The translations under genes were made by a program, and so were the position numbers. The notes under the pieces are model-generated. The model saw only the letters and a program-made list of their open reading frames with translations. It had not been told where the DNA came from and searched no databases. Shown here piece after piece: positions 40,332 to 55,464 of a stretch of DNA of 64,000 nt (position 1 is the first letter of the stretch; each line of letters starts with the position of its first letter). This stretch comes from Streptomyces sp. NBC_00510 (lineage in GTDB: Bacteria; Actinomycetota; Actinomycetes; Streptomycetales; Streptomycetaceae), in the NCBI GenBank assembly GCA_036013505.1, contig CP107851.1, forward strand, positions 3,419,501 to 3,483,500, read 5' to 3'.

Positions 40332-41426
40332 AGCCGCCAGCTGCCCGCAGGCGCCGTCGATCTCCTGCCCCCGGGTGTCCCGGACGGTCACCGGCACGCC
40401 GTGCGCCTCCAGCGCCGCGACGAACGCCCGCTCGTCCTCGGGCCGCGAGGCCGTCCACTTCGAGCCGGGGGTCGGGTTCAGCGGGATCAGGTTGACGTGC
40501 ACGCGGCGGCGCTTGAGCAGCCGGCCCAGCAGGTCCGCCCGCCACGCCTGGTCGTTGATGTCCCGGATCAGCGCGTACTCGATCGAGACCCGGCGCCCGG
40601 ACACGTCCGCGTAGTGCCACGCGGCGTCCAGCACCTCGCGCACCTTCCAGCGGGTGTTCACCGGCACCAGGGTGTCGCGCAGCTCGTCGTCGGGCGCGTG
40701 CAGCGACACCGCGAGCCGGCACTTGAAGCCCTCGTCGGCGAAGCGCAGCATCGCCGGGACCAGGCCCACCGTCGACACGGTGATGCCCCGCTGGGACAGC
40801 CCCAGCCCGTCCGGCTCCGGATCGGTCAGCCGGCGGATGGCGCCGACGACACGCTTGTAGTTCGCGAGCGGCTCGCCCATGCCCATGAACACGATGTTCG
40901 ACAGCCGCGCCGAACCGCCCGGGATCTCCCCGTCCCGCAGCGAGCGCATGCCCGCCACGATCTGGTGCACGATCTCCCCGGTCGACAGGTTCCGGTCCAG
41001 CCCGGCCTGGCCGGTGGCGCAGAACGGGCAGTTCATGCCGCAGCCCGCCTGCGAGCTGATGCACATCGTCACCCGGTCCGGGTAGCGCATCAGCACCGAC
41101 TCGACCAGGGTGCCGTCGAACAGTCGCCACAGCGTCTTGCGCGTGGTGTCGTTGTCCGTGCTGCTGTGCCGCACCACCGACATCAGGTCCGGCAGCAGCC
41201 CCTCCGCCAGCTTCCCCCGCGCCGCCGCCGGGATGTCCGTCCACGCGGCGGGGTCATCGGCGTAGCGCGCGAAGTAGTGCTGCGACAGCTGCTTGGCGCG
41301 GAACGGCTTCTCCCCCAGCTCCGCGACCGCCTCCCGGCGCTCCTCGGGCGAAAGATCGGCAAGGTGCCGCGGCGGCTTCTTGACTCCGCGCGGCGCGACG
41401 AATGTGAGTTCTCCGGGTGCAGGCAT
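40320..41426 (-). CDS. rlmN: Dual-specificity 23S rRNA / tRNA adenine C2-methyltransferase
   Basis: A 368-residue radical-SAM methyltransferase that modifies A2503 of 23S rRNA and A37 of some tRNAs. The iron-sulfur CxxxCxxC motif is CGMNCPFC (about residues 129-136), followed by [14 protein letters not shown]. The conserved C-terminal Cys that receives the methyl group lies in GACGQL near residue 360. Protein length is normal. Codons 1-7 and the 19 bp upstream coincide with an integrase attachment site, so the coding sequence is intact but everything upstream of 41446 is now element DNA. The ribosome binding site, if any, is the weak GGATG inside the site. Confidence 0.95.
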
Positions 41427-41445
41427 GGTTCATCCAGTGTCGCAG
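41406..41445. repeat. Attachment site copy 1, overlapping the 5' end of rlmN
   Basis: This 40-bp sequence matches 46746-46785 with a single mismatch (41436 a versus 46776 g), including 30 identical consecutive bases at 41406-41435. It spans rlmN codons 1-7 and 19 bp upstream. With an integrase gene next to the other copy, the pair is best read as attL/attR of an integrated element. Confidence 0.85.
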
Positions 41446-41751
41446 ATCGTTTGGGGCCGCCCAGGTCAGATGGGTGAGGCTCCCGTCACCCTCAGGTGTC
41501 CCCTGTCAACGCTGGTCAACCTTTCACGGCCCACAGACGGCCCAGGATCCAGGCCATCCGCCGCGCGGCGCCTTCTGATCCGTTGCTCGCTAGGCGTGTC
41601 ACCTGGACGCCGCGCCGCTACGGGTGAGCGGTCGGGACGTTGCCCGAAAAAACGTGCGTGAGTCGGGGACAACCCTGCCCCTGACTCACGAGTCACACAG
41701 GCGTCTGACTTTGCACGTGGTCCGCCTTGGTCCGAAAGGGGCCCTTACTCT
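41446..41751. other. Non-coding element DNA between attachment site and FN3 gene
   Basis: No gene is seen. It contains a 19-bp motif repeated near the integrase end (listed separately) and a gc-rich segment at 41560-41640. A hairpin lies at 41658-41689 (gtgagtc and gggg pairing with cccc and gactcac, one bulge). The promoter and ribosome binding site (AAAGGGG at 41735-41741) of the FN3 gene follow. Transcripts for rlmN must now start here or in the element. Confidence 0.55.
41526..41544. repeat. Putative integrase arm-type site, left copy
   Basis: The 19-bp acggcccacagacggccca matches 46657-46675 with one mismatch and in the same orientation. Each copy itself contains two acggccca-like half-repeats. 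The two copies lie about 70-120 bp inside the two attachment sites, as expected for integrase arm or excisionase binding sites. Confidence 0.5.
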
Positions 41752-43797
41752 GTGATGACTCGTACCCGGCTGTCCACGCTGGCCGCGACGGCCGCGCTCG
41801 CCACCACCGGCGGCCTGATCACCGCCGCCCCCGCCTCCGCGGCGGTCACCTGCACCTCTCCCGTCTGGAGGGCGCAGTACTTCGGCAACTCCACCTTCAG
41901 CGGCACGCCGAAGCTCACCGCCTGCGACACCGTCATCAGCGAGAACTACGGGTACGGCGACCCGGCCGGCGTCACGCTGCCCAAGGACAACTTCTCCGTC
42001 CGTTGGTCCCTCAACCGTGACTTCGGCTCCGGCGGCCCCTTCCGGCTCTCCGCCGCCACGCAGGACGGCATGCGCGTCTACGTCGACGGTGTGCGGAAGA
42101 TCGACCTGTGGAAGAACGTCTCCACCACCGCCCGCAAGACCGTCGACCTGACCATCCCGGCCGGCAAGCACACGATCCGCGTGGACTACGTCGCATGGAC
42201 CGGCGTCGCCAACGCCGCCTTCACGTACGCCCCGCGCACCGAGGCCGCCGTCGACACGGTCAAGCCGCTCGCCCCGACCGGCCTCACCGCCGCGTACGAC
42301 TGGACGACGGCCAAGACCACCCTGCGCTGGACCGCCAACAAGGAGATGGACCTCGCCGGGTACCGCGTGTACCGCCGGCTGAGCGCCACCAGCTGGGCCA
42401 AGGTCAGCGGGACGTCCCTGCTGACCACCCGGTCCTTCGTCGACGCCCCGCCCGCCACCGGCCAGACCTTCCTGTACGAGGTCCGCGCCGTCGACAAGGC
42501 CGGCCGCGAGTCCATCGGCAGCCCGGACGTGACGGCGTCGACCGTAGACCGCACCGGGCCGGCCGCCCCCACAGGGCTCACGGTCGCCACCGGCGACGGG
42601 TGGTGGGACACCCTGAACTGGCAGGGAGTCGCCGACACGGTGAAGTACGAGGTGTACGCCTCGTCCGCGGCTGCCGGACCGTTCGAGCTGCGCGGCACGA
42701 CGACCACGACGTCGTACCGGACCAGCGGCGCCGTGAACACGAACACGTACTACCAGGTCCGGGCCCTCGACGCAGCCGGCAACCCGGGGGCGTACGCGAC
42801 GGTCACCAGCGACGGCGTCGACCGGATGCCACCGAAGTCCCCGACCGGCGTCACCGCCGGCGCCCGTCCCGGCTACACCAACGTGCACTGGAGCCAGCCC
42901 GACGGTTTCTTCGAGGACTGGGACAACGGCGGGCACTACCGCGTGTACCGCTCGCCCGGCAAGACGTTCGACCCGACCGCGCGCACCCAGGTGACCTGCG
43001 TCGCGGAGGAGAGCCACGAGGCGAGCAACGGCGGCAACTGCTACGACGTGGACATGCCCGCGAACACGTACGTGACGTACGCCGTCACGGCGGTGGACCC
43101 GTACGGCAACGAGTCGGCGTACTCCGCGCCGGTCGTCGTCCGCACCGGCGACACCGTGGCGCCCGGCCCAGTCACCGGCGTGAAGGTCACCCCGCGCAAC
43201 GACGGCATGCTGGTGAGCTGGGCCGCCTCGCCCGAGGACGACATCGACGAGTACGTGGTGTGGAAGGGCGTCCGGCAGGCCGACGGCACGGTCAAGTGGC
43301 TCGGCCCCGACACCTGCTCGGAGGGCACGAGCAACTGGCTCGCGATCCTCTGCGGCAACCTGCCGGACGGCGAGACGCACGTGTACGCGGTGATGGCCAA
43401 GGACCACTGGGGCAACACGCTGCACCCGAGCGACCCGAAGGTCACCGTGGTCGAGGCCACCGAGCTCGATGTCCGGCCGTCCGTGACCGTCACCCGGGAC
43501 TGGAGCCTCGGCAGTCTGGGCCACAACCGGACGGCCACTCGTCCGTCCGTCGACTGGCAGTGCACCGACACGGCCCGCTGCGCCACGGTCACCGGCTACC
43601 GCGTGAGCCGGTGGAACCCGGCGACCAAGGCGTACGAGCCCCAGCACGACGGACTGCTCCCGGCGGACGCCCGGACGTGGGAGGATGCCACGGCGACGAA
43701 GGGGAACACGTACTTCTACACGCTGGAGGCCGTGACGGCCGACGGTGCCGTGGTGGGGACGTACCCCTGGTACACCGTCTTCCAGGACCGCGTCTGA
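41752..43797 (+). CDS. Secreted PA14 / fibronectin type III protein (element cargo)
   Basis: A 681-residue exported protein. It has an N-terminal signal peptide ending APASA-A (about residue 31) and a PA14-like module (WRAQYFGNSTFSGTPKLTA to TIRVDYVAWTGVANAAFTYA, about residues 35-165). At least four fibronectin type III repeats follow, opening near PLAPTGLTAAYDW, AAPTGLTVATGDG, PKSPTGVTAGARPG and PGPVTGVKVTPRND, then a diverged C-terminal module. There is no catalytic domain and no cell-wall anchor, so binding of polysaccharide or surface proteins is the likely job. GTG at 41752 suits AAAGGGG spacing; ATG at 41755 is equally possible. A strong hairpin follows. It lies inside the attachment sites, so it is cargo. 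Confidence 0.82.
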   Translation: MMTRTRLSTLAATAALATTGGLITAAPASAAVTCTSPVWRAQYFGNSTFSGTPKLTACDTVISENYGYGDPAGVTLPKDNFSVRWSLNRDFGSGGPFRLSAATQDGMRVYVDGVRKIDLWKNVSTTARKTVDLTIPAGKHTIRVDYVAWTGVANAAFTYAPRTEAAVDTVKPLAPTGLTAAYDWTTAKTTLRWTANKEMDLAGYRVYRRLSATSWAKVSGTSLLTTRSFVDAPPATGQTFLYEVRAVDKAGRESIGSPDVTASTVDRTGPAAPTGLTVATGDGWWDTLNWQGVADTVKYEVYASSAAAGPFELRGTTTTTSYRTSGAVNTNTYYQVRALDAAGNPGAYATVTSDGVDRMPPKSPTGVTAGARPGYTNVHWSQPDGFFEDWDNGGHYRVYRSPGKTFDPTARTQVTCVAEESHEASNGGNCYDVDMPANTYVTYAVTAVDPYGNESAYSAPVVVRTGDTVAPGPVTGVKVTPRNDGMLVSWAASPEDDIDEYVVWKGVRQADGTVKWLGPDTCSEGTSNWLAILCGNLPDGETHVYAVMAKDHWGNTLHPSDPKVTVVEATELDVRPSVTVTRDWSLGSLGHNRTATRPSVDWQCTDTARCATVTGYRVSRWNPATKAYEPQHDGLLPADARTWEDATATKGNTYFYTLEAVTADGAVVGTYPWYTVFQDRV

Positions 43798-43806
43798 GGG
43801 ACCTGG

Positions 43807-43852
43807 GGGCCTGTCGTCCGGATCTTGCCGGGCTCATCCGGACGACAGGCCC
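43807..43852 (+). terminator. Strong terminator hairpin after the FN3 gene
   Basis: Perfect 16-bp stem gggcctgtcgtccgga (43807-43822) pairing with 43837-43852 around a 14-nt loop, 10 bp after the stop codon. Confidence 0.85.
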
Positions 43853-44001
43853 TAGCTAGCCGGATCGGTCAGCGACGGCCATACCGGCCGCCCCGAGGCC
43901 GCAAGGCCCCGGAGGGACGCTACCGGACGGGGGCGGTTGCTGGGGTTGCGGTACGGAGCTGCTGTACAGCGACCGGGCAGGAAGCCTGTCCCGCCGGCTC
44001 T

Positions 44002-44421
44002 TCATTGACCGAGAGCAATCGCACCTTCCGGCCTGTCTGTGGCACGCTGCGCCGTCACCAGATAGCCCGCGAAGCTAACGTCCGACCTGGCCTTCGCCCA
44101 CCCGTCCGCCTCCTTGGCAGGAACCAGCACGGTCGTGCCGGGAACGGGGTAGTTCACCTTGTCCGTAGCGCCCGGGGGCACCCCGTAACGGCAGTGCACC
44201 TCGGCAATCGACAGCACCTCCACCGAGGTAGGTGCATGCCCGTCCCCCTGGCCGTGGTGCTCCTCGCGAAAGTCGATCTCATCCGCACGTTCGCTGCCAA
44301 CGACGTCGGCGTAATCCTCCGGATCGACCTCCAGCAGCGTCCAGGAGACAACATCCCCTGGCGCGAAGCTCTGTCCGCAGCCCTGGATCTGCCAGTGATC
44401 GATCCAAATCGTCAACGTCAT
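44002..44421 (-). CDS. Small hypothetical protein (possibly DUF6578 family)
   Basis: A soluble acidic protein of about 139 residues. Taken from Met at 44421 it starts MTLTIWIDHWQIQGCGQSF and contains GDVVSWTLLEVDPEDYADVV and VPGTTVLVPAKEADGWAKA. The opening resembles a small Streptomyces family that I recall as DUF6578; this assignment is weak. An upstream ATG at 44454 gives an 11-residue extension. Neither start has a good ribosome binding site. The gene lies inside the integrated element, oriented opposite to the integrase module. A role in the element, for instance as regulator or immunity factor, is conceivable but not shown. Confidence 0.55.
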   Translation of the reverse strand: MTLTIWIDHWQIQGCGQSFAPGDVVSWTLLEVDPEDYADVVGSERADEIDFREEHHGQGDGHAPTSVEVLSIAEVHCRYGVPPGATDKVNYPVPGTTVLVPAKEADGWAKARSDVSFAGYLVTAQRATDRPEGAIALGQ

Positions 44422-44670
44422 GCCGCCATTGTCCGCCGAGGGACCTGAGCTCATCAGGGGCCTCGCGCATGATCTACGACACCCGCTTTAGGAGCGAGGT
44501 GGGGCAATCGTAGGCCTGACCTGCGGGTCCCTACCTTGGGCGGAGTCCAGCTGCACGTCCCCCTGCACACCCCGACTCCCCGTGGTTCCCCGCCTGTTCT
44601 GGCACGGATGTGGCACGACCGCTTTTCGTCTCGAAGCAATGCAGCCGCACCACTTGCCTCCCCCCGGACC

Positions 44671-45246
44671 TTCCGCTGGGGGACCCAGCTCGACGTCCGC
44701 CCGGTCAAGGCGTTCGGGGACGGCTCGGACATCACCGAGCAGGCCGTCGCCTCCTACGTCGCCAAGTACGTCACCAAAGCAGCAGAGAACACCGGCACCC
44801 TCGACCGCCGCATCGGCGAACTCGCCGAACTCGACCGCCACCACGTGCCCGACCACACCCGCCGCCTCATCCAAGCCTGCCGCGAGCTCGACAACCTCTA
44901 CCCCGACCGGCGCCTGTGGGCCTGGGCACACATGCTCGGCTTCCGCGGCCACTTCTCCACCAAATCCCGCGCCTACTCCACCACCCTCGGCGCCCTCCGC
45001 CAGGAACGCGCCGACTACCGCGCCGCCCAAGAACGCGACGTCCTCGGCCTGGAGCCCATCGAGCCCGACACCGTCCTGGTCCTGGCCGACTGGCAATACG
45101 CCGGCCACGGCCACACCCCCGGCGAATCCGTCCTCGCAGCATCCATCGCCCGGGACCTCCAGCTCAACCGCGAAACCGCCCGCGAAGCCCTGCACGACCA
45201 ACTGGCCCTGGAAGGAGCCGCAGCATACGGCACACCCGCTTCCTGA
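44671..45246 (+). pseudogene. C-terminal remnant of a RepSA-like replication initiator
   Basis: From about 44671 the frame reads RWGTQLDVRPVKAFGDGSD, AVASYVAKYVTKAAENTGTL, LWAWAHMLGFRGHFSTKSR and YAGHGHTPGESVLAASIARD, which I recognise as the C-terminal part of pSAM2-type RepSA initiators. The N-terminal half of such proteins (roughly 250 residues, including catalytic motifs) is absent. Upstream sequence in this frame is unrelated and lacks a good start, so the gene is truncated and presumably dead. Its stop overlaps the beginning of the excisionase frame, the normal rep-xis arrangement. Confidence 0.8.
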
Positions 45247-45421
45247 GCGGTACCTGACCCCGGCCGATGTCGCCGAACTGCTCGGCGTTCCAGTCGAGAC
45301 GCTGTACCAGTGGCGGCGCAAGCGCACCGGTCCGCCGGCCTTCCGTATCGGTCGGCACCTTCGGTACGACCCCGCCCGGCTCCGCCAGTGGATCGACGGT
45401 CTCACCGAGGTGGCTGCCTGA
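45227..45421 (+). CDS. xis: Excisionase-like HTH protein with an apparent ACG start
   Basis: The frame encodes a 64-residue MerR/excisionase-type HTH protein: ERYLTPADVAELLGVPVETL, YQWRRKRTGPPAFRIGRHLR, then YDPARLRQWIDGL. This is a complete Xis by length. No ATG, GTG or TTG occurs in frame near its beginning. A strong GGAAGGAG at 45210-45217 is followed 9 nt later by ACG at 45227, exactly where an ATG would be expected, so a T-to-C change in the start codon is likely. The stop overlaps the integrase ATG by one base. Expression may be weak or lost. Confidence 0.65.
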   Translation, partial: TAHPLPERYLTPADVAELLGVPVETLYQWRRKRTGPPAFRIGRHLRYDPARLRQWIDGLTEVAA

Positions 45422-46686
45422 TGGCCGGACACATCCAAGATCGCTGGCATAAGACCGAGCCGGGGCCTGATGGCAAGCCCATGAGGGTCAAGTCCGCCCG
45501 CTATGGCAATGGACTGCGGTATCGGGCCCGGTACGTCGGCCCGGACGGTACGGAGAAGAGCAAGTCCTTTCCGGACCGGCAGAAGCGCCGGGCGGAAGAG
45601 TGGCTTGCCGAGACCGCCGCCGATATGTCCAGAGGCCACTATGTCGATCCCAAGGCGGCCCGGCTCACGTTCCAGCAGTACGCGGAACGCTGGGTTGCCG
45701 CCCAAACGACGGATCCCACCACCCGCATCGCGGTTGAGACTCGCCTGCGCCTGCACGCCTTCCCTCGGATCGGTGCCCGCCCGTTGGGTTCCTTCCGGCC
45801 GCTCCACATTCGTGATTTCGTGCGCGACCTGGAGCACGACTTCATGGCGGGAACGTACGCCCGCACCATCTACGCCAACGTGCGGGCGGTGCTGTCGGCC
45901 GCCGTCGTCGATGACGGTCACCTGGCGCGCAACCCGTGCGGGGCCGCCTCTGTGCGCCCGCCGGCCGTCTCCGCCAACCGGGTCGTGCCGTGGCTCCCCT
46001 CACAGGTGCGGGCGGTCCGAGAAGCCCTCCCTGAGCGCTACCGGGCGATGGTCGATGTGGGGAGCGGCTGTGGTCTCCGGCAGGGCGAGATCGTGGGCCT
46101 GGCCGATGGCGCTGTCTCCTTCGTGACCGACACACTGCGGGTCACGACCCAGGTCAAGCTGATCCGGGGGGTAGCAGTCTTCGCTCCGCCCAAGGGCAAC
46201 AAGGAACGGGATGTGCCGCTCCCGTCGTCTGTCGCCTCTGCCCTGCGGCAGCACATGGCGAGCTACGCTCCCGTGAGCATCAAGTTGCCGTGGATGAGGC
46301 CGGACGGGCCGCTGGCGGAACGGCAGCTGCTCTTCAGCAACACGGCCGGCGGAATCGTCTGGCGCAGCAACTTCAACGTCCAGGAGTGGAAACCCGCCCT
46401 GGCAGCCGCGGGCCTCATCCCCACGCCCGACCCGGGTGAGCCTTACGCCTCCGCCCGGCACCACGGTATGCACGCCCTGCGCCACTTCTACGCCTCGGTT
46501 CTCCTGGACGCCGGGGAAAGCGTGAAGGCTGTCAGTGAGTGCCTGGGCCACTCCGACCCCGCGATGACGCTGCGCGTGTACGCACACTTGATGCCGAGCA
46601 GTAGCGAGCGTGCCCGCCGGGCCCTGGACGGCGTCTTCGGCACGGCCGGAAGCCTGACGGCCCAGAGACGGCCCAACGGGCATTAG
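45421..46686 (+). CDS. int: Tyrosine site-specific integrase
   Basis: A 421-residue tyrosine recombinase of the pSAM2/AICE type that inserts and, with Xis, excises the element. An N-terminal arm-binding region (MAGHIQDRWHKTEPGPDG) precedes a SAM-like core-binding domain (LTFQQYAERWVAAQTTD). The catalytic domain has all key residues: Arg in CGLRQGE (R220), HALRH (H351 and R354), His in CLGHSD (about 377) and the nucleophile in RVYAHL (Y387). The gene looks intact. The ATG at 45421 shares a base with the xis stop. Attachment copy 2 starts 59 bp after the stop codon. Confidence 0.93.
   Translation: MAGHIQDRWHKTEPGPDGKPMRVKSARYGNGLRYRARYVGPDGTEKSKSFPDRQKRRAEEWLAETAADMSRGHYVDPKAARLTFQQYAERWVAAQTTDPTTRIAVETRLRLHAFPRIGARPLGSFRPLHIRDFVRDLEHDFMAGTYARTIYANVRAVLSAAVVDDGHLARNPCGAASVRPPAVSANRVVPWLPSQVRAVREALPERYRAMVDVGSGCGLRQGEIVGLADGAVSFVTDTLRVTTQVKLIRGVAVFAPPKGNKERDVPLPSSVASALRQHMASYAPVSIKLPWMRPDGPLAERQLLFSNTAGGIVWRSNFNVQEWKPALAAAGLIPTPDPGEPYASARHHGMHALRHFYASVLLDAGESVKAVSECLGHSDPAMTLRVYAHLMPSSSERARRALDGVFGTAGSLTAQRRPNGH
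46657..46675. repeat. Putative integrase arm-type site, right copy
   Basis: acggcccagagacggccca, one mismatch from 41526-41544, lies in the last codons of int, about 70 bp from attachment copy 2. A further half-copy (acggcccc) follows at 46687. Confidence 0.5.
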
Positions 46687-46745
46687 ACGGCCCCCTACTG
46701 GCGGGAAATCCGCTGGTGGGGGGCTTCTTCATGTCCCGCGAACAC

Positions 46746-46785
46746 GAGTTCTCCGGGTGCAGGCATGGTTCATCCGGTGTCGCAG
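46746..46785. repeat. Attachment site copy 2, with a vestigial rlmN start
   Basis: It matches 41406-41445 (39 of 40). It retains the rlmN start codon equivalent (46764-46766, minus strand) and codons MPAPGEL, then runs into element DNA and stops at 46695 after 23 residues. This side preserves the original upstream neighbourhood of rlmN. Confidence 0.85.
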
Positions 46786-46793
46786 CGCGGCAT

Positions 46794-46973
46794 CTATCCG
46801 CCGCTCCGGCTGCGGTGCCACTTGAGCGCGGTCGCAAAAAGAGCCGGGCCGAGCATGAGGTAGGAGATGTGAACCGTCGGCCGCATGACGTTCCAGGAAA
46901 TGAGCGCGAACTGCGCCCAGAAGATCAGCCAAAGCCACCACGGCATCACGCCCGGCACCTTCTTCTTCGCCAT
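46794..46973 (-). CDS. Small two-helix membrane protein, formerly upstream of rlmN
   Basis: A 59-residue protein: MAKKKVPGVMPW, then two hydrophobic helices (WWLWLIFWAQFALISWNVM and ISYLMLGPALFATALKW) and a basic tail (HRSRSGG). The N-terminal lysines suggest a cytoplasmic N-terminus. The ATG at 46973 is preceded by GGAAGGGGGG; the longer frame from 47024 lacks a signal. Its stop lies 27 bp before the duplicated rlmN start codon on the same strand, so before insertion it probably formed a two-gene operon with rlmN. Function is unknown. Confidence 0.65.
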   Translation of the reverse strand: MAKKKVPGVMPWWLWLIFWAQFALISWNVMRPTVHISYLMLGPALFATALKWHRSRSGG

Positions 46974-47190
46974 GGCCCCCCTTCCGCGATGGCGGAGACG
47001 GTATCGCAGCGTGAAACGGCACACCAGACTCCGTGATCACCGGCCCGTAGCATCGGCGCGCGGGGAACCGCCCCGGCTTGCACGCTGTCGGGTGCGCGCG
47101 ACCTGGACCGGCTACGTCAGCTTCGGCCTGTCGGCCCGTCTGCCCACCCACCTCCACTCGACGACCGAGGAACGCGGCCGGGCGTGCTGT

Positions 47191-47634
47191 TCAGTCGCCT
47201 GAGTGGCCCCAGAAGTAGATCTCCTGAGGGACGCCCTCGTCGTCGTGCAGCACAGCGCACCGTCCGACCCACCGCGACCGGGGGAAGACGTCGAAATCCT
47301 TGACGTGTGCACGCGTCAGCTTGCCGGTGTCGAGCAATGCGCGCGCCTCCTCGGCCGTCACAGGTTCCACGGTGTTGTAGCCCGGGGTCTCGTCAGGCCC
47401 CACGACCCGGAAGATGTCCAGGATCGAGTGCGTGCCGGCCTCCTGGACCAGCTCGTCGGCCCACAGTTCCTCCAGCGACCGCGGGCGAGGCTCCCGCTCC
47501 GCCTTCGGTCGCCAGTCGGCGCCGTTGACCCAGTAGTAGTCCCCTGCCTCGAACACCTCGCGCCGCAGCTGTTGGAGCGCCGCGTTCAGGTCTTCCTGGT
47601 ACGGCACGTAGTAGTCCCACTCCGAAGCCCCCAC
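47191..47634 (-). CDS. Hypothetical acidic protein
   Basis: A 147-residue protein from GTG at 47634, preceded by GAAGGGG. It opens GASEWDYYVPYQEDLNAAL and contains LRREVFEAGDYYWVNGADW, LEELWADELVQEAGTHSILD and EARALLDTGKLTRAHVKDF. I have a sense of similar small proteins in other actinomycetes but cannot name a domain. The soluble, acidic, Trp/Tyr-rich character resembles toxin-immunity proteins, which also fits its divergent position 99 bp from a SUKH-like gene; this is speculative. No signal peptide or helix spans the membrane. An in-frame ATG at 47694 would add 20 residues. Confidence 0.6.
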   Translation of the reverse strand: MGASEWDYYVPYQEDLNAALQQLRREVFEAGDYYWVNGADWRPKAEREPRPRSLEELWADELVQEAGTHSILDIFRVVGPDETPGYNTVEPVTAEEARALLDTGKLTRAHVKDFDVFPRSRWVGRCAVLHDDEGVPQEIYFWGHSGD

Positions 47635-47733
47635 CCGTCCCCAGCCCCTTCCCTTTTCCCTTGGACCGCGGAAGCTAGCAGCCGGCTCCGACATTCAGGC
47701 TCAGGTGGGAACGCGGGCGGTAGCGTCTGCGTC

Positions 47734-48456
47734 ATGTCCGATGCTCTCGACGTGGCGGTGGCGCTGCGAGGCGGGGTGACCAGCCGTTCCCAGGCCTGGG
47801 ACTTCGTTCGCCGGTTCGCCGACGAGTGGACGGCCCACCCGTTGTGCCCCGAGGACGGCTGCACCGCCGCCGAACTGGACGCCGCCGAGACCGAATTGGG
47901 ATTCGACCTTCCCGCCGTTCTACGGGAGGGCTACGCGCTGCTCGGCCACCGCGACGACCTGACCAGGCAGCAGGATCCGCTGGTCCCGCCGATGGGCCTC
48001 CATGTGGACGGCGGCTTCGGCGGCGTCCTCGTCTTCCGCGTCGAGAACCAGGACTGCGCGTCATGGGGCATCCCACTGGACCGGGTCGAGCAGGACGATC
48101 CCCCCGTGGTGGTGGAGTCGCACGAGGGGTGGGTCCCGTTCCTGGACCGCATGTCCGTGGCCTGGGTGGAGCTGGTGCTGAGCGAGTCGCTGCTCGGGGC
48201 AGGAAGCCTTTACGACGCCTGCGAGTTGCCGGACGCGCTCCTGCCGAACCTCGCGGCGCGCTACACACGAGTCGACCTGCCCGACCACCGGATGTGGGCC
48301 GGCAGGGAGGACTCACCCCTGCGCTGGTACGCGGCCCCGGGCCGCCTGCTGCGCCGCGACGGGGTGCTCGACCGGTGCTGGCTCCACGCGCGTGGACGCA
48401 CGGCCGCGGATCTCGAGCGGATCCGCGACGACCTGCCGACCCGATGGGTCGCCTGA
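47734..48456 (+). CDS. SUKH (SMI1/KNR4)-like protein
   Basis: A 240-residue soluble protein. The segment CTAAELDAAETELGFDLPAV followed by LREGYALLGHRDD matches the start of SMI1/KNR4 (SUKH) domains, and a partner-binding-type loop follows (GVLVFRVENQDCASWGIPLD). SUKH proteins are common immunity proteins against secreted nuclease toxins, but also occur as stand-alone regulators. No toxin gene is adjacent. It is divergent from the hypothetical gene at 47191-47634. It is followed by a convergent permease gene 55 bp away. The ATG at 47734 has GGGCGG about 12 nt ahead, a weak signal. Confidence 0.65.
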   Translation: MSDALDVAVALRGGVTSRSQAWDFVRRFADEWTAHPLCPEDGCTAAELDAAETELGFDLPAVLREGYALLGHRDDLTRQQDPLVPPMGLHVDGGFGGVLVFRVENQDCASWGIPLDRVEQDDPPVVVESHEGWVPFLDRMSVAWVELVLSESLLGAGSLYDACELPDALLPNLAARYTRVDLPDHRMWAGREDSPLRWYAAPGRLLRRDGVLDRCWLHARGRTAADLERIRDDLPTRWVA

Positions 48457-48511
48457 CCGCTGGTTCCGTGATCGTGCCGTCTGCGGCCCCGGCCGCCCCG
48501 TTCGCGGCAGC

Positions 48512-50041
48512 TCAGTGCTTGAAGACGTCGACCCCGCCGGGCTCGGCCTCCAGGGACCGGCGGTCGAAGACCAGCATGCCGAGGAAGAACAGCCCGCCGA
48601 CGACGAGCAGGCCCACCACGATCACCAGGGGCACCAGCGCCTCCCGCGGTGTCACCAGGGCGATGAGCGCGACGACCGTCCACGCCAGGGCGGCGAGGGC
48701 GACGGGCAGCTCGAGGCGTCCCAGGTCGAAGGCGCCCTTGCGGCGGCCCAGGCGTCGGCGTACCGCCAGGTAGAGGACGATCGTCGAGCCGTAGATGAGC
48801 GCCGGGAGGATCGTCGACGCCGTGATGAGCTCCAGCAGTGCGGCGCCGGGGAGCGCCACCATCAGGACGACCCCCATCGCGAGGATGAGCACGGTGGCCG
48901 GGATCGGGGTGTGCGTGCGCGGGTTGACCCGTCGCATGATCCGGTGCGCGGGGAAGCGCCCGTCGCGCGACATCGCGAAGATGATCCGCGAGCACGCCAC
49001 CATCACCACCATCCCCGCGCCGAAGAAGGCGAAGGTGATCGCGACCAGCAGCGTCCGTTCCGTCACCGAGCCGAGCTGGTCCCGCATGATCGTGGCGACC
49101 GGGGAGCCGTCGCGGCTGATCCGCGGGACGTCCTCGATGGCCACGGTGAGCGTGATCAGGAAGAGCATGCCCAGCAGCCCCGCGGCCACGACCGAACCGA
49201 CGATCGCTCGGGGGACGCTCCGGTAGGGGTCCTTGGCCTCCTCTGCGAGGTTCGCCGCGGAGTCGAAGCCGACGAGCGTGGCCAGGCCCATGATCATCGC
49301 GATCATGAGCCCGCCGCCGACGGTGAAGTAGTGCGGGGCGCCCTCGGTGATGCCGCGCGAGGTGAGGTTGCCGACCGCGCCGTTCCCCGTGACCGCCGCG
49401 GTGATGACGAGCGCGACCGCCATCACCACGACGAGTGCCAGCTCCAGCCCGACCGCAGCGCTGTTGACCAGGCTGACGAGGCGGGTGGAGGCCACCGCGA
49501 GCACGGCCTGGACGAGCAGCACCACGAGCGTGATGACGCGGGCCGTGTCCTCGTCCGGCCTCATGCCGGCGAGCGGCATGAAGGCCTGGCTCGCGAGGGC
49601 GTTGTCGATGGCGACCACGGCGATCGCCAGGTAGCAGAACGTCAGCCAGCCGAATCCCCACCCCACCTTCGGGTTCGCCAGCCGTGAGGCCCACTGGTAC
49701 GAGGAGCCGCTGAGGGCGATGCGTCCCGCGAGCTGAGCCACCACCAGGGCCACCAGGGACTGCCCGACCGCGACGAGGATCCACAGCCAGATGCCGACGG
49801 GGCCCGCGTTCTGCAGCACGTCGTCGTAGGTGGAGAAGATGCCGACGGCCACGGAGATGAACGCGAACGAGATCGCGAAGACCTGGAAGGAGCCGAGGGT
49901 ACGTTTCAGTTCCTGCCGGTATCCCCCCTCCTCGACCGACCTCTCGCCGGCCGACTCGTCCGTCGGGGCTTCCGCCACCTCAGCCACCTCGTCCTCGCTC
50001 GGGATCCTCCGGGCCGCGCCCGTTTTCCATATGTATGTCAT
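48512..50041 (-). CDS. APC-superfamily amino acid permease
   Basis: A 509-residue inner-membrane transporter with about twelve hydrophobic helices. It opens with an acidic cytoplasmic tail, then QELKRTLGSFQVFAISFAFI with the conserved SVAVGIFSTYDDVLQNAGPV. ALSGSSYQWASRLANPKVGW and GFDSAANLAEEAKDPYRSVP are typical of GABA/choline-type (GabP/UGA4-like) APC permeases. Uptake of an amino acid or amine by proton coupling is the likely function. The ATG at 50041 is preceded by GGGAAG; the first codons (ACA TAC ATA TGG AAA) are unusually AT-rich for this genome. It stands alone in the accessory region. Confidence 0.85.
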   Translation of the reverse strand: MTYIWKTGAARRIPSEDEVAEVAEAPTDESAGERSVEEGGYRQELKRTLGSFQVFAISFAFISVAVGIFSTYDDVLQNAGPVGIWLWILVAVGQSLVALVVAQLAGRIALSGSSYQWASRLANPKVGWGFGWLTFCYLAIAVVAIDNALASQAFMPLAGMRPDEDTARVITLVVLLVQAVLAVASTRLVSLVNSAAVGLELALVVVMAVALVITAAVTGNGAVGNLTSRGITEGAPHYFTVGGGLMIAMIMGLATLVGFDSAANLAEEAKDPYRSVPRAIVGSVVAAGLLGMLFLITLTVAIEDVPRISRDGSPVATIMRDQLGSVTERTLLVAITFAFFGAGMVVMVACSRIIFAMSRDGRFPAHRIMRRVNPRTHTPIPATVLILAMGVVLMVALPGAALLELITASTILPALIYGSTIVLYLAVRRRLGRRKGAFDLGRLELPVALAALAWTVVALIALVTPREALVPLVIVVGLLVVGGLFFLGMLVFDRRSLEAEPGGVDVFKH

Positions 50042-50268
50042 AAATGCTTCCCGGCCTGCACCTTGAGGCTCCCCGGGCCGTCCGCACCCAGCGAACGTTG
50101 GCCAGCGCTGCACGGCTCACGGAGGGTCAGGGTCTGTCCACGCGCGGGGCGTCGATCGGGTGAGCCCGGCCCGGCGGCCGGGAACGGGCTGCGCCACTGG
50201 GATGACCTTGGCGCCGGACGCCGGTGGGCGCGGGTACGGATCTCGTCGACAGGGGCCCGAGCCGTGCC

Positions 50269-50456
50269 GGAAGGCCCTCCGGTTCGGTGCCGGCCAGAGA
50301 TCGACGAGGAGTGTCTCCATGCGTCCTGCAGACAGGACCCCTCCGCCCTCCAGGCGGTCCCTTCGACGGTTCGGACGGCTCGTCGGCACGGTGGTGCCGG
50401 CGGCCCTGATCGCCACCGCGATATCCGCGGCCTCCCTGACGACGGCTCAAGCCGCC
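50269..50456. repeat. Duplicated 5' leader plus signal-peptide block, copy 1
   Basis: This 188-bp block aligns without gaps to 51271-51458: 50 bp of upstream leader with tcgacgaggag as ribosome binding site, plus the first 46 codons. Longest identical run noted is gtcctgcagacaggacc. Beyond the signal peptide the two genes are unrelated. Confidence 0.8.
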
Positions 50457-51068
50457 GACACGGACGACGCGGCCACGCCTGGGGCGCCGGCGTCGAGCTT
50501 CCCGTGGCCCGACCCGTACGACGACTACCCGTACCCCGACGGAGATCTCGACCCCGGTCCCGATCCCGGACTCGGCCTTCTCCTCGGCGTCGGGTCCCTC
50601 CTAGGCCTCGGTCGCGGACCCCTCCTCGACACCACCGGCAACGGCCCGGACTTCGACCCGGCCGGTCCCCTCCTCGGCCCCGGCCGTGGGCCCTTCCTGG
50701 CCCCCTACCCCGGCCCCGGCAGGCTCTCGGGGTGTGACATCGACTCCACCGGCGTGGACAACACGACCGACCGCGACTTCTCCGTGGCCGTGATCCGCGG
50801 CCGGACGTTCGTCGGCCAGCGCGACACCGTCCCGGTGGGCGGCACCTACACCTGGCAGGACCTCAGCTGGCTCCCCGGGTACCCCGGCACCGGGGTGTGC
50901 GGCGCGAGCGTGACCACCTCCTCGGTATCGGAGCTGTCGGTCAAGGTCATCACCTTCCGCGGCGACGTGGCGGAGAGCCGCTGCACCATCACCGGTGCCC
51001 TGCCGGTCTGCAGTGCCTGGAGCCCGCTGCTGGGCACCTTCCAGCCGCCCCCGGTCGCCATCCCCTGA
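50319..51068 (+). CDS. Secreted hypothetical protein with Pro/Gly/Asp-rich linker
   Basis: A 249-residue exported protein. The 46-residue signal region contains two arginine clusters (SRRSLRRFG) and a hydrophobic core (VVPAALIATAISAASLTTA), cut near AQAA. The Tat or Sec route is unclear. Residues 47-135 are Pro/Gly/Asp-rich (PDPYDDYPYPDGDLDPGPDP). The last 110 residues look like a small beta-rich domain with four cysteines, CDIDSTGVDNTTDRDFSVAV to CSAW. No known family was recognised. GAGGAG at 50306-50311 precedes the ATG by 7 nt. The leader and signal region are a copy of those of the next gene. Confidence 0.7.
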   Translation: MRPADRTPPPSRRSLRRFGRLVGTVVPAALIATAISAASLTTAQAADTDDAATPGAPASSFPWPDPYDDYPYPDGDLDPGPDPGLGLLLGVGSLLGLGRGPLLDTTGNGPDFDPAGPLLGPGRGPFLAPYPGPGRLSGCDIDSTGVDNTTDRDFSVAVIRGRTFVGQRDTVPVGGTYTWQDLSWLPGYPGTGVCGASVTTSSVSELSVKVITFRGDVAESRCTITGALPVCSAWSPLLGTFQPPPVAIP

Positions 51069-51270
51069 CCGGCCCGGGTCGACGGTCCGTCGCAGTGTGC
51101 GCCCGCCGAACGACGGGCACCGGCGTGGCCGGTCGTACGAGGGGCCGTCAGCCCCGGGTGGGTCCCGCCTGTGAGGCGGAGGACGGGAACCGGCCGCGCA
51201 CCTGACGGGCCAGGCGGCCGTCACGCCCGGCCATGGGTAGGAACCACGTCGATGTGGCCCGAACCGGAAC

Positions 51271-51458
51271 GGAATTCCCTCCGGTCCGGCTCGGGCCCGA
51301 TGTCGACGAGGAGTCTCCCCATGAGTCCTGCAGACAGGACCGCTCCGCCCTCCGGGCGGCACTCGCGGTGGTACGGACGGCTCACCGGCATGGTCGTGTC
51401 CGCGGCCCTCGCCGCCACCGCGGTGTCGGCCGCCGCCCTCTTCCCGGCCCAGGCCGCG
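51271..51458. repeat. Duplicated 5' leader plus signal-peptide block, copy 2
   Basis: Partner of 50269-50456. The ribosome binding site sits at the same distance from the ATG, the signal peptide has the same 46-residue length, and no gaps are needed in the alignment. Confidence 0.8.
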
Positions 51459-52718
51459 GGCAAGGACCGGGAGCGCGCGGCCGATCCGGCCGCGATACGT
51501 GAGTGGAACGCCATCGCCACGGACGTCATCGGCACCAGCCTGGGCCCGACCCGGCCCTCGGGGCAGGCCGTCGTCTGGCACGGGTTCGTCTCGGTCGCCG
51601 TCTACAACGCCGTGGTCGGCATCGAGGGCCGCTACGCACCCTACAAGTGGCACGCCCGCGGGCCCGCCGGCGCGTCGCCGGAGGCGGCGGCCGTGACCGC
51701 CGCACACCACGTCCTGCTCTCCGACTTCCCCGCGTCCCGCACGCTGCTCGACACCGCGTACGCCGATTCCCTCGCCAGGATCCCCGACGGCAACGCCAAA
51801 CGGCAGGGCGTGGCCTTCGGGGCGCGAGCCGCCGACCGTGCCATCCAACTACGGCAAGGCGACGGCCGGTTCGCGACGGTGGAGTTCACCACCCCTCCGG
51901 CGCCGGGCGTCTGGCGGCCAACGCCGCCCGGGAACCTCCCGTTCATCGACACCTGGCTCGCCCGGCTGCGCCCGCTGCTGCTCGCCTCACCGTCCCAGTT
52001 CCGGCCCGGGCCGCCGCCCGCCCTGACCTCGGCCCGCTACGCCCGGGACGTGAACGAGGTGAGGACCATGGGCGCGCGGACGGGCTCGCCCCGGACCGCG
52101 CTGCAGACCGAGACCGCCCTGTTCTTCGGGGGCAACCTGGCCGTGCAGCTCCAGGCCGCGTTCCGCGACCACAGCGCCCGCCACCGCCTGGACATCGCCG
52201 ACACGGCCCGGCTGTTCGCCGCGGCGAACTCCGCCGCGACCGACGCCGTCATCACCGCGTGGGACGCCAAGCTCCACTACGGATCCTGGCGGCCGATCAC
52301 GGCCGTCCAACTGGCCGGCACCGACGGCAACCCGGCGACCGAGCCGGATCCGCAGTGGCAGCCGCTGCTCGTCACGCCACCGCACCCCGACCACATCAGC
52401 GGGCACGCCGCGGTCGCCGGCGCCGTGGCCCAGACCCTGACGGGGCTCTTCGGCACGACCCGCATCGACCTCACCTTCCCGTCCGACGCCACGGGCACCA
52501 CACGGCACTACGACGACGCCGTGCAGTTCAACCAGGACATGATCGACGCCCGTGTGTGGGCCGGCATCCACACCCGGACGGCGGACACCGAAGGCTGCCT
52601 CGCGGGAGCCCGCGTCGGCCTCTGGGCCCTCACGCACTACTTCCGGCCCCTCCGCCCGGCGCACCCCCACGCCTCCCGGCCGATCCCGCGCACGTGCCCG
52701 CAGCCTGAGGCGAGCTGA
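51321..52718 (+). CDS. Exported vanadium-dependent haloperoxidase / PAP2-like protein
   Basis: A 465-residue secreted protein with a 46-residue signal region (ending PAQAA). The phosphatase/haloperoxidase pocket is recognisable: KLHYGSWRP (Lys then RP, residues 317-325), HISGHA (residues 358-363) and RVWAGIHTRTAD (Arg411, His417). This order and the helical N-terminal half (AVVWHGFVSVAVYNAVVGIE) match bacterial vanadium-dependent haloperoxidase-type proteins. Most of these have unproven substrates and may be phosphatases. GAGGAG lies 7 nt before the ATG. A terminator hairpin follows. The leader duplication links its expression or export to the preceding gene. Confidence 0.82.
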   Translation: MSPADRTAPPSGRHSRWYGRLTGMVVSAALAATAVSAAALFPAQAAGKDRERAADPAAIREWNAIATDVIGTSLGPTRPSGQAVVWHGFVSVAVYNAVVGIEGRYAPYKWHARGPAGASPEAAAVTAAHHVLLSDFPASRTLLDTAYADSLARIPDGNAKRQGVAFGARAADRAIQLRQGDGRFATVEFTTPPAPGVWRPTPPGNLPFIDTWLARLRPLLLASPSQFRPGPPPALTSARYARDVNEVRTMGARTGSPRTALQTETALFFGGNLAVQLQAAFRDHSARHRLDIADTARLFAAANSAATDAVITAWDAKLHYGSWRPITAVQLAGTDGNPATEPDPQWQPLLVTPPHPDHISGHAAVAGAVAQTLTGLFGTTRIDLTFPSDATGTTRHYDDAVQFNQDMIDARVWAGIHTRTADTEGCLAGARVGLWALTHYFRPLRPAHPHASRPIPRTCPQPEAS

Positions 52719-52732
52719 CCCGCCCTCACCGT

Positions 52733-52770
52733 CGCGTGCCCTCCCGCCCGGCACCCGGGGAGGGCACGCG
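52733..52770 (+). terminator. Terminator hairpin after the haloperoxidase-like gene
   Basis: Perfect 13-bp stem (52733-52745 pairing 52758-52770), 12-nt loop, starting 15 bp past the stop codon. Confidence 0.8.
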
Positions 52771-53043
52771 GTCGCGAGAGCGCCGGGCCGGCCCGGTCAG
52801 TCCCACCAGAAGCTCCACATGCGCGCACGCGCCGACGGCCTCCCTTCCGGAGCGACGGCACGTACACAGTGTGCGCGCCGGGTGTGACACTGCCGTTGCC
52901 GGAACTGTGGATTCCGCCACAACCCGGGCGACCCTCCTGCTCCGAGCGGTTCCGGGCGCCGGACCGGCTCGGGCGGATGCCGCGCGGTGACTTGACTGTC
53001 CGTCACGCAGGGCCACGCGGGACGCGGGACGCGGTCCTGGACC
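52771..53043. other. Non-coding gap before the DUF6233-like gene
   Basis: No gene was recognised; open frames on both strands are Arg/Pro-rich and lack starts. It lies between two converging genes, so no promoter is required here. Confidence 0.5.
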
Positions 53044-53409
53044 TCACGGGGTGCGCTCCGATTCCGGGTGGCAGATCTCGCACGGCGCGACGTCCGGCAT
53101 GCCGAGGGCGACCTCGAACTCCTGCCGGTTCAGCCGCCCGCCCCCGGGCACGCGGCAGTCGTCGCGATGGAGGACGCCCCGGCCCGCACCGCCGCGCGGA
53201 TCGGGCACGCTCTGCAGCCGCCAGGCGGAGACGCGACCGCGCTTCCCGCCCCGAGTTCGCGGAACGGCGTCATCTCCGGCCTCCGCCCCGGCCACGACCA
53301 GGGAACCGGATTCCGCCTCCTGGATCTTGGCGTCGACTGCGGCGATCTGCATCTGCAGATAGAGGCGTATCACCCGCAGGCGCTGCGGATCCGGAGGAAG
53401 CTCGTACAC
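53044..53409 (-). CDS. Small hypothetical protein (DUF6233-like)
   Basis: A 121-residue protein starting with GTG. The N-terminal YELPPDPQRLRVIRLYLQMQ, with a helix VDAKIQEAE, and the C-terminal DDCRVPGGGRLNRQEFEVAL followed by CEICHPESE resemble a family abundant in Streptomyces that I recall as DUF6233. The C-terminal Cys pair (CEIC) plus an upstream His/Asp/Cys could bind a metal. Function is unknown; members are often scattered as multiple paralogues. It is transcribed toward the haloperoxidase-like gene, with a 188-bp gap to the divergent sulfurtransferase gene. Confidence 0.6.
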   Translation of the reverse strand: MYELPPDPQRLRVIRLYLQMQIAAVDAKIQEAESGSLVVAGAEAGDDAVPRTRGGKRGRVSAWRLQSVPDPRGGAGRGVLHRDDCRVPGGGRLNRQEFEVALGMPDVAPCEICHPESERTP

Positions 53410-53596
53410 ACGTTCGAGTGTAAGCGGCGGACCGACCGCCGACCAGCGTCACGGGCCGCCGCACCCTGCGACCGCCGTCACGACGAGCGGCGACGGCGCA
53501 GGTCAGGGAGGGGTGTCGGCCGTGGACCGCTCAGCGGCAGGCCGCCACACGCACGGCCGGCTTCCCGGCCCGGCCGGGCTGCGCCAGGATGGGCCG

Positions 53597-54436
53597 GTGA
53601 ACACGATCATCAGCGCCGCGGAGCTCGCCACCACCCTGCGCGACGGTACCGCCCCCGTGCTCCTGGACGTCCGCTACGAACGCGGAGGCCCGTCCGGGCT
53701 CGCGACGCACGAGGCGGGCCACATCGCGGGCGCGGTGTACGTCGACCTGGAGGCGGAAATCGTCGGACCGGCGGGCCCGGCCGGCCGGCATCCACTGCCG
53801 GACGCCGGGGTGTTCGCGGCCGCGATGCGGCGGGCCGGGGTGGGCAGGGGCAGCCGGGTCGTCGTCCACGACGGCGGCCAGGGCTGGGCCGCGGCACGGG
53901 CCTGGTGGACGCTGCGCTGGGCGGGCCACGACGACGTACGCGTGCTGGACGGCGGACTGCCCGCCTGGACGGCCGCCGGCGGCGGACTGACCACACGGGC
54001 CACCGCACCGGAGCCCGGCGACTTCGAGGCCGTACCGGGCGCGCTGCCGGTGCTGAGCGCCGACGACGCTGCGGCACTGGCCCGTACGGGGGTGCTGCTG
54101 GACGCGCGGGCGGCCGAGCGCTACCGGGGCGAGGTCGAGCCGCTGGATCCGGTGGGCGGTCACATCCCGGGGGCCGTGTCGGCTCCGACGTCCGGGAACG
54201 TCACCGCCGACGGCACCTTCCGTCCCGCCCGCGAACTGGCCGCCCGTTTCGCCGCCCTGGGGGTCACGGCGGACGGCGGCAGGGTCGGCGTGTACTGCGG
54301 TTCGGGGGTCTCGGCCGCGCAGCAGGTGCTGGCCCTGGCCGTCGCGGGGATCGACGCCGCGCTGTACGTCGGCTCGTGGAGCGAGTGGAGCGCCGACCCC
54401 GCCCGGCCCGTGGCGCCGGGGCCGCAGCCGGGCTGA
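53597..54436 (+). CDS. sseA: Two-domain sulfurtransferase (rhodanese / 3-mercaptopyruvate type)
   Basis: A 279-residue cytosolic enzyme with tandem rhodanese domains. The inactive N-terminal domain contains VLLDVRYERGGPSG and HIAGAVYVDLE. The catalytic C-terminal domain contains LLDARAAERYRGEVEPLD, HIPGAVSAPTSGN and the active-site loop YCGSGVSAAQQ with Cys234 as persulfide carrier. CGSGVS favours 3-mercaptopyruvate or thiosulfate as donor. GTG at 53597 was chosen because the longer frame upstream is Arg/Gly-rich and unlike the family. Its stop is 26 bp from the convergent cdsA stop. Confidence 0.87.
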   Translation: MNTIISAAELATTLRDGTAPVLLDVRYERGGPSGLATHEAGHIAGAVYVDLEAEIVGPAGPAGRHPLPDAGVFAAAMRRAGVGRGSRVVVHDGGQGWAAARAWWTLRWAGHDDVRVLDGGLPAWTAAGGGLTTRATAPEPGDFEAVPGALPVLSADDAAALARTGVLLDARAAERYRGEVEPLDPVGGHIPGAVSAPTSGNVTADGTFRPARELAARFAALGVTADGGRVGVYCGSGVSAAQQVLALAVAGIDAALYVGSWSEWSADPARPVAPGPQPG

Positions 54437-54462
54437 GCTGCTGACGGCCGGCTGCCCGGGGA

Positions 54463-55464
54463 TCAGCCCGAGCCGACGAAGACGACCAGCAGCAGCCACA
54501 CCACGGGGGCGGTCGGCAGCAGCGAGTCGAGGCGGTCCATGATGCCGCCGTGGCCGGGCAGCAGCTTGCCCATGTCCTTGATGCCGAGGTCCCGCTTGAT
54601 CATGGACTCGCCGAGGTCACCGAGGGTCGCGCTGGCGGCCACCGCGAGGCCCAGCAGCAGACCCTGCCACCACCGGCCGTCGTCGATCAGGAACTGCATG
54701 GACAGGGCGCCCGCCGCCATCGCGAAGGTGATCGCGCCGACCAGGCCCTCACGGGTCTTGCCGGGGCTGATGCGGGGAGCGAGCTTGTGCGTGCCGAAGC
54801 GCCAACCGACGGCGTAGGCACCGGTGTCGCTGATCACCGTGAGCAGCAGGAAGACGAAGACCCGCCACGGGCCGTCGCCCGCAGCGAGCATCATCACCAC
54901 GAACGTGGCCAGGAACGGCACGTAGAAGGCGGCGAACACGCCCGCCGTGACGTCGCGGAGGTAGTTCTCCGGAGGCTCCGTCATGCGCCACACCAGTACG
55001 GCGAGCGCGGTGAGCGCCATCGCCACCCACGCGCCCTCGGCACCGCGCACGTAGCCCGCGACGACCATGGCGGCGCCGCCGACGGCGAGCGGCACCAGGG
55101 GAGCCCGGATCTCCTTGCGTTCGGCCAGGCGCGAGGTGAGCTCCCACAGGCCCACCACGACCGCCGCGGCGACGACGCCCACGAAGACGGCCTTGACGAT
55201 GAAGAGCGAGGCGATGATGACGACCCCGAGGCCGACACCCACCCCTATCGCGGCGCGCAGGTTGCGCCCCGCGCTCTTCTTCGCCCGGCCGCCGTTCCCA
55301 CCCGCTGCCGAGGGCTGCGGCACGGAACGGTCGGGCCGGGCGGAGTGCCGCTCCGGTTCGGGGGCGTCGTCGCGGAACAAGGGGCCGCCCATCCGGGTGG
55401 CCCCTTCATCCTCGCCTCCCCAGGAACCGGCATGTGGCGAGGGCCCCCAAGAAGAGTCGTTCAC
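54463..55464 (-). CDS. cdsA: Phosphatidate cytidylyltransferase (CDP-diacylglycerol synthase)
   Basis: A 333-residue integral membrane enzyme converting phosphatidate and CTP to CDP-diacylglycerol for phospholipid synthesis. A charged 65-residue N-terminal tail precedes about eight hydrophobic segments. The CdsA signature is complete near the C-terminus: LGDLGESMIKRDLGIKDMGK then LLPGHGGIMDRLDSLL. It follows frr on the same strand (gap 115 bp) in the conserved rpsB-tsf-pyrH-frr-cdsA order. In many actinobacteria rlmN comes next; here 13 kb of accessory DNA separates them. Confidence 0.93.
   Translation of the reverse strand: MNDSSWGPSPHAGSWGGEDEGATRMGGPLFRDDAPEPERHSARPDRSVPQPSAAGGNGGRAKKSAGRNLRAAIGVGVGLGVVIIASLFIVKAVFVGVVAAAVVVGLWELTSRLAERKEIRAPLVPLAVGGAAMVVAGYVRGAEGAWVAMALTALAVLVWRMTEPPENYLRDVTAGVFAAFYVPFLATFVVMMLAAGDGPWRVFVFLLLTVISDTGAYAVGWRFGTHKLAPRISPGKTREGLVGAITFAMAAGALSMQFLIDDGRWWQGLLLGLAVAASATLGDLGESMIKRDLGIKDMGKLLPGHGGIMDRLDSLLPTAPVVWLLLVVFVGSG

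Follow-up and report, generated by a model that had tools for sequence, protein, structure and literature searches.

The 64,000-nucleotide stretch of Streptomyces sp. NBC_00510 analysed here (the window; contig CP107851.1, positions 3,419,501 to 3,483,500) very probably carries, at 41407-46785, the remnant of an actinomycete integrative and conjugative element (AICE) of the RepSA type, whose integrase recombines attP and an attB that lies within the opening codons of rlmN, where this gene borders on cdsA. The recombination of attP and attB within the segment AGTTCTCCGGG would turn element DNA into codons 1 to 3 of rlmN, its start codon and its upstream region, and the displaced native start of rlmN would stay at the far end, beside the integrase. 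rlmN would now be transcribed from within 41427-41751, perhaps from a near-leaderless promoter located at the conserved motif GACACTGG. The element would no longer be able to transfer itself and would probably excise poorly.

Recombination at the first codons of rlmN

An initial annotation, made from the letters of the window, had reported a 40-bp repeat with one mismatch across the start of rlmN. This repeat is confirmed: 41406-41445 and 46746-46785 form a direct repeat identical at 39 of 40 positions (91% identity when stretched to 47 bp) with a spacing of 5,340 bp, and copy 1 spans rlmN codons 1 to 7 plus 19 bp upstream. Its possible dispersal away from integrases was checked by a BLAST search of the 10.1-Mb host genome with 41390-41450, which returned two places only (E <= 0.001), namely the two att copies. 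Each copy is accompanied by a pair of ACGGCCCA units 11 bp apart, located 80 bp inside copy 1 and 71 bp inside copy 2, which we take to be putative arm-type sites of the integrase. When the flanks of the two copies are compared, the highest-scoring 20-mer matches at 18/20 positions, and shuffled sequences (n=30) reach at most 15/20. In the relatives examined for the arms, the ACGGCCCA pair stands at similar distances from the core. The presence in the window of these paired repeats in both the P and P' arms, as in the rlmN-targeting group, supports the reading of the two copies as attL and attR of one element.

Uninterrupted rlmN sites were sought in relatives, as had been proposed, and the surroundings of rlmN were taken from the 60 same-family relatives among 100 searched. 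The distance from rlmN to the end of cdsA is 32-385 bp in 47 of them and 604-9,306 bp in 10, and cdsA falls outside the stretch in 3. The proximity of rlmN and cdsA is the usual, empty state. An arm pair lies within 400 bp of rlmN in only five of the 60 (G046, G027, G017, G023 and G031), so the element represents a minority state at this position.

The crossover point was deduced from the comparison of empty and occupied sites around the element L073. Nine empty sites near its host (L213, L215, L216 and L218-L223, of the best 12 loci) read GTG AGTTCTCCGGG CTT AGGCAT GGTTCATCC. The rlmN side of L073 reads GTG AGTTCTCCGGG TGC AGGCAT AACCCTTCT and continues into the P' arm; its integrase side reads ATC AGTTCTCCGGG CTT AGGCAT GGTTCATCC and continues into the native flank. 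Because the flanks exchange around AGTTCTCCGGG between empty and occupied sites, the crossover in the mapped relatives is placed within these 11 shared bp, which correspond to rlmN codons 4 to 7, so that the element there supplies codons 1 to 3, the start codon and all the upstream DNA. Codon 3 changes from AAG to GCA upon occupation in the mapped hosts. The same comparison rules out a crossover at the start codon (AGGCAT). Furthermore, rlmN is joined in L201 to the haplotype seen on the integrase side of L078, and in L209 and L210 to the one seen on the integrase side of L130; in these three loci, the DNA further upstream differs by indels. The supply of the start codon and N-terminus by the element is thus seen at L073 and, with fewer empty sites, at L078 and L130, and we infer that element DNA provides them in the window as well. 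The repeat, the arm repeats and the empty sites of relatives together uphold the proposal of an element integrated at the 5' end of rlmN with preservation of the reading frame. The accompanying statement that the replacement begins at 41446 has to be corrected, the mappable relatives recombining inside the coding sequence.

Several observations weigh against this placement of the crossover. Among the loci with both copies in view (n=9), the exchange is displayed by L073, L078, L080 and L130 only; the copies of L115 and L085 differ only in part at the exchange region, and those of L074, L089 and L124 are alike there. In L228, L236, L239, L240 and L241, the integrase-side copy begins GTTCTCCGGG, which reduces the shared segment to 10 bp or less. 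In the window, both copies carry identical letters in the AGTTCTCCGGG region, and its own crossover cannot be mapped for that reason.

The possibility that the DNA to the right of copy 1 is native was considered, since the relative G012 shares its first 51 bp and has no second copy; it was rejected on the finding that nine occupied relatives have a similar P' arm. G012 may best be read as the old scar of an earlier insertion. P'-arm-like sequence adjoins rlmN in L059 (G023) and L033 (G012), where the stretch read contains no integrase relative; both are possible scars of past occupation.

The rearranged outer end and the decay of the element

The coordinates of the features are collected in Table 1. 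Beyond cdsA, the window continues with frr and the genes of EF-Ts and ribosomal protein S2, presumably with pyrH in between.

Table 1. Features of the rlmN-cdsA region of the window
Feature	Position	Strand	Basis or remark
rlmN, target gene, 368 aa	40320..41426	-	TIGR00048, 321.8 bits (cut-off 290)
att copy 1, rlmN side; start codon 41424-41426	41406..41445	.	39/40 identical to 46746-46785
11-bp segment AGTTCTCCGGG, rlmN codons 4-7, holding the crossover in mapped relatives	41407..41417	.	comparison of occupied and empty sites
GACACTGG motif upstream of the rlmN start, putative -10 region	41434..41441	-	7 or 8 nt before ATG in 50/60 relatives
P' arm of the element	41446..41545	.	similar arm after the rlmN-side copy of the nine occupied named loci whose stretch includes rlmN
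Paired arm-type repeat ACGGCCCACAGACGGCCC	41526..41543	.	repeat comparison of both flanks
PA14-domain protein gene, divergent from rlmN; cargo or later insertion	41752..43797	+	PF07691
DUF6578 gene, passenger	44002..44454	-	PF20218
RepSA C-terminal remnant	44536..45246	+	PF20199, positions 246-437 of the 438-position profile
Excisionase-like HTH reading frame without start codon	45227..45421	+	HTH_17; TIGR01764, 28.2 bits (cut-off 28.8)
Tyrosine integrase, 421 aa, open	45421..46686	+	PF00589; <=88% identical to same-site relatives
Paired arm-type repeat ACGGCCCAGAGACGGCCC, P arm	46657..46674	.	repeat comparison of both flanks
att copy 2, beside the integrase; orphaned duplicate of the start of rlmN, motif reading GACACCGG	46746..46785	.	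repeat comparison
cdsA, neighbour of rlmN in relatives, here 13 kb off	54463..55464	-	PF01148; gap 32-385 bp in 47/60 relatives

The region beyond copy 2 does not agree with a simple insertion. From 46786 onward the DNA reads CGCGGC, the native flank AT or AC expected after copy 2 is missing, and the outer end of the element appears rearranged for this reason. A simple attR-to-cdsA junction is not seen, cdsA lying 7.7 kb beyond copy 2. The segment 48473-54460, whose genes with Pfam matches encode a permease, a PAP2-like protein, a DUF6233 protein and a rhodanese, is common to the window and G012 only, among 40 relatives compared, and lies in G012 between rlmN and cdsA. The rlmN end of G012 matches the window up to 41496 only, and no copy 2 is present in the 16.7 kb read. 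When 35 genomes of the genus (the host included) were searched for 46786-48472 in its state before the insertion, only fragments turned up outside the locus itself.

These observations leave some room for a composite locus, possible although doubtful in our view, in which 46786-54460 would be what is left of another insertion, or of an earlier part of this element, the whole rlmN-cdsA insert amounting to about 13 kb. The 7.7 kb between copy 2 and cdsA, compared with at most 385 bp between rlmN and cdsA in 47 of 60 relatives, and the segment shared with G012 at the same junction both argue for it, as do the cores of relatives such as L077 and L085, which are flanked by P and P' arms in the manner of stacked elements (judged by eye). 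On the other hand, no third copy of the core exists in the window at up to 13/40 mismatches, and the permease, PAP2-like, DUF6233 and rhodanese genes are presumably not typical AICE genes.

Two further short segments, 44477-44600 and 46805-47182, resemble several places of the host genome, some of them near its ends, and one neighbourhood within contig C75 of G012.

Between the att copies, the gene content identifies the element, as far as homology can tell, as a decayed AICE of the RepSA type. The RepSA remnant noted initially is indeed there, its PF20199 match being confined to the C-terminal part. The RepSA of L073 is 83% identical over 197 aa at 44623-45213, and its N-terminal part gives no significant match in the window, the same query finding L074. 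The complete replication initiator of an AICE is therefore reduced here to a C-terminal part, RepAM and Prim-Pol having been searched only via the Pfam scan of chosen open reading frames, and the element is filed as an AICE remnant. The excisionase of L085 matches the window frame from residue 2 to residue 65, its end, and the position of codon 1 reads CAT. With the TraB of L073 as query, no match in the window has an E value below 0.7, so that no FtsK/SpoIIIE-type TraB is recognized there, and the same query finds L074 at 95%. It is the combination of a lost excisionase start, a truncated RepSA and an unmatched TraB that makes the element a remnant. The integrase beside copy 2, described initially as intact, is so: its frame is open, PF00589 is matched and LRQGE (residue 219), HALRH (351), LGH (375) and VYAH (386), which we take to be the catalytic motifs, are in place. 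An integrase and flanking att repeats, as expected of an AICE, are accordingly present in the window.

The open integrase with its motifs, the att copies alike at 39 of 40 positions and the arm repeats at both ends would also suit an element that is still mobile, which excises and is replicated or transferred with the help of another AICE in the cell. We consider this improbable in view of the excisionase frame devoid of a start codon, the RepSA devoid of its N-terminal part and the TraB without a match. A plain duplication of the start of rlmN as the origin of the repeat, produced without site-specific recombination, would account for two copies identical but for one letter, and can practically be dismissed in view of the arm repeats beside both copies, an integrase group that tracks the site and the exchanged flanks of relatives against empty sites.

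In the case of the gene 41752-43797, the FN3 label given initially has to be replaced: at E <= 0.001, Pfam recognized PA14 but none of the FN3 models. A stretch 78% identical to the region of this gene is found elsewhere in G012. The PA14-domain gene is without a match above 45% identity in the integrase stretches of 68 relatives, where the DUF6578 gene was not searched; since the PA14-domain gene is unmatched there, it and the DUF6578 gene may not be original cargo, which weighs against their being part of the element as it was inserted. A perfect 17-bp inverted repeat (43807-43852), terminator-like, directly follows the PA14-domain gene.

The integrase group and its sites

Relatives of the integrase were found at 68 loci of named genomes, in which a core was accepted at up to 12/40 mismatches within the fetched stretch. 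The att core is found in 28 of them, 27 of which have cdsA in view and 9 of which have rlmN in view opposite. In the host family, 146 of 394 genomes, the host itself included, contain an integrase match at E <= 1e-120, and the core lies within the stretch in 27 of the best 29 loci besides that of the window; the named and family-wide sets may overlap in species. The two loci without a core, L237 and L250, fall outside this tidy picture, L237 coming from G017, whose rlmN bears a P' arm pair. The window shares with the group an att core with AGTTCTCCGGG at rlmN codons 4 to 7 beside the integrase, and the rlmN/cdsA junction is, judging from these loci, the usual site of this integrase group. Because it is the usual site, and because an AICE in rlmN is already in print, the target is not exceptional; of the initial proposal of an unusual 5'-end target, the use of the 5' end of rlmN stands and its rarity does not.

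Of the 54 integrase loci examined, 37 have a P-side arm pair no further than 500 bp from the end of the integrase, and 5 of 25 named rlmN rows are without one at that distance, again outside the tidy picture. An integrase tree of 55 rows was built by a quick method; 14 of the 68 named loci, whose integrases are partial, broken or distant, were excluded from it. One branch of this tree (SH-aLRT 99) comprises 25 rows with other or unknown sites and contains none of the 26 rlmN rows. The rlmN rows do not form one clean clade, with 3 changes and L079 (no core in its short contig) among them, which counts against the proposed reading. A tRNA target was also considered and rejected, ARAGORN finding none in the window and none in 27 of 29 integrase loci, with two matches (L111 and L122).

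L073 (S. rubiginosohelvolus) is a complete element, in which an FtsK_SpoIIIE-type TraB, DUF2637, RepSA and integrase lie between att copies separated by 10.7 kb; rlmN and cdsA are located beyond these copies. Its cargo (L073:852-3445) comprises an SMODS (CD-NTase) protein and an HD-domain protein, possibly an anti-phage module. In L077 and L085, another P' arm follows the integrase-side core, which suggests by eye that elements are stacked at rlmN. Core-like stretches away from rlmN occur at L187, L188, L189 and L190 (two in G044, one in G028 and one in G009), and the 8-16 kb read around them contain no relative of the integrase. These four, three of which carry P'-like DNA, would be remnants or secondary sites and also stand outside the tidy picture. 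L128, on a contig labelled as a Bacillota metagenome-assembled genome, contains a partial integrase relative and a core and is probably mis-binned Streptomyces DNA.

Sister integrases, 61-68% identical to that of the window and provided with the same kind of arm pair, adjoin other genes: a histidine-phosphatase-family gene ending KNQGKKK, presumably a phosphoglycerate mutase gene, nusG and the IPP transferase gene miaA; some of them sit upstream of aldehyde dehydrogenase genes. The sister loci are L094, L095, L097, L099, L127 and L092, and L111, L112, L114 and L120. The nusG, miaA, phosphoglycerate-mutase-like and aldehyde dehydrogenase genes are candidate targets of these integrases.

The proposed new start of rlmN and its meaning

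The motif GACACTGG precedes the ATG of rlmN by 7 or 8 nt in 38 of the 47 near-cdsA sites and in 12 of the 13 others, and it is exact in five of the nine named occupied rlmN-side copies (L074, L078, L089, L115 and L124). In the orphaned copy 2 it reads GACACCGG, as expected in the absence of selection. In S. lividans, about 20% of genes are leaderless and the -10 region is described as TANNNT, then 7 nt to the start base (PMC6742748). An A occupies the third base before ATG in 83% of the 47 near-cdsA sites, and a transcript starting three bases before ATG would fit this arrangement. Against such a promoter stand the single mismatch of GACACTGG in the other four occupied copies (L073, L080, L085 and L130), the deviation of GACACT from TANNNT at base 1, and a consensus scan that found no sigma-70 promoter at 41380-41900. 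A divergent gene begins on the plus strand 325 bp from the start of rlmN, and cdsA is 13 kb off; read-through from cdsA is therefore unlikely and the promoter should lie in 41427-41751. The dependence of rlmN on the element for its transcription is plausible from this anatomy, and an effect on drug susceptibility through rlmN is speculation.

AICE03 of Streptomyces RLB3-6, reported in 2022, is described as an AICE located in rlmN and flanked by an 11-nt repeat (PMC9513070). It resembles the element of the window by its integration in rlmN and by a repeat as long as the 11-bp crossover segment, the two being compared by length alone, and differs from it in being described as an AICE, whereas the window holds a remnant. 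PMC9513070 is the only report on integration in rlmN that we found in the open-licence literature, which implies no claim of absence elsewhere. rlmN as an AICE site is thus already known, and the manner in which the start of the gene is swapped is a useful new detail. pSAM2 shares with the window a RepSA-type replication protein and the rep-xis-int order, the latter being given for pSAM2 in a reference title of PMC3218068. As the descriptions set them apart, pSAM2 uses the 3' end of a tRNA gene (PMC3218068), whereas the integrase of the window uses the 5' end of a protein gene. The pSLS subfamily is named in the same source as the exception to the use of tRNA genes among AICEs with tyrosine recombinases (PMC3218068); no pSLS or S. 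laurentii record appeared among the 60 of 89 plasmid rows listed. The replacement of a gene's 5' end is known for dusA and prfC elements (PMC8409611). IMEVchUSA3 (dusA) and SXT (prfC) resemble the element of the window in that they occupy the 5' ends of housekeeping genes. These two are gammaproteobacterial, and the expression of dusA was measured (PMC8409611), whereas the replacement of three codons described here is read from sequence.

A broader model can be put forward tentatively, with somewhat less than even confidence, in which attP is a portable rlmN start, rlmN is brought under element control and the integrase family is retargeted while keeping its arm repeats. The portable start carried by attP would consist of the near-leaderless promoter motif, the start codon and three codons (MPK becoming MPA in some hosts). 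With each integration, rlmN would be separated from the cluster of translation genes that ends in frr-cdsA, and the element would gain control of a ribosome-modifying enzyme. The housekeeping genes reached by retargeting would include the apparent 3' ends of the phosphoglycerate-mutase-like gene, nusG and miaA.

In conclusion, elements inserted at the 5' ends of genes must keep an important gene running while they replace its start. Dozens of Streptomyces-type genomes, some with rlmN occupied by an element and others with the site empty, constitute natural before-and-after pairs, which make the effect of the swapped upstream DNA and of the first rlmN codons testable. With its constant arm repeats and apparently changing targets, the integrase family is useful for studying how tyrosine integrases change sites, and possibly for the construction of new integration vectors.

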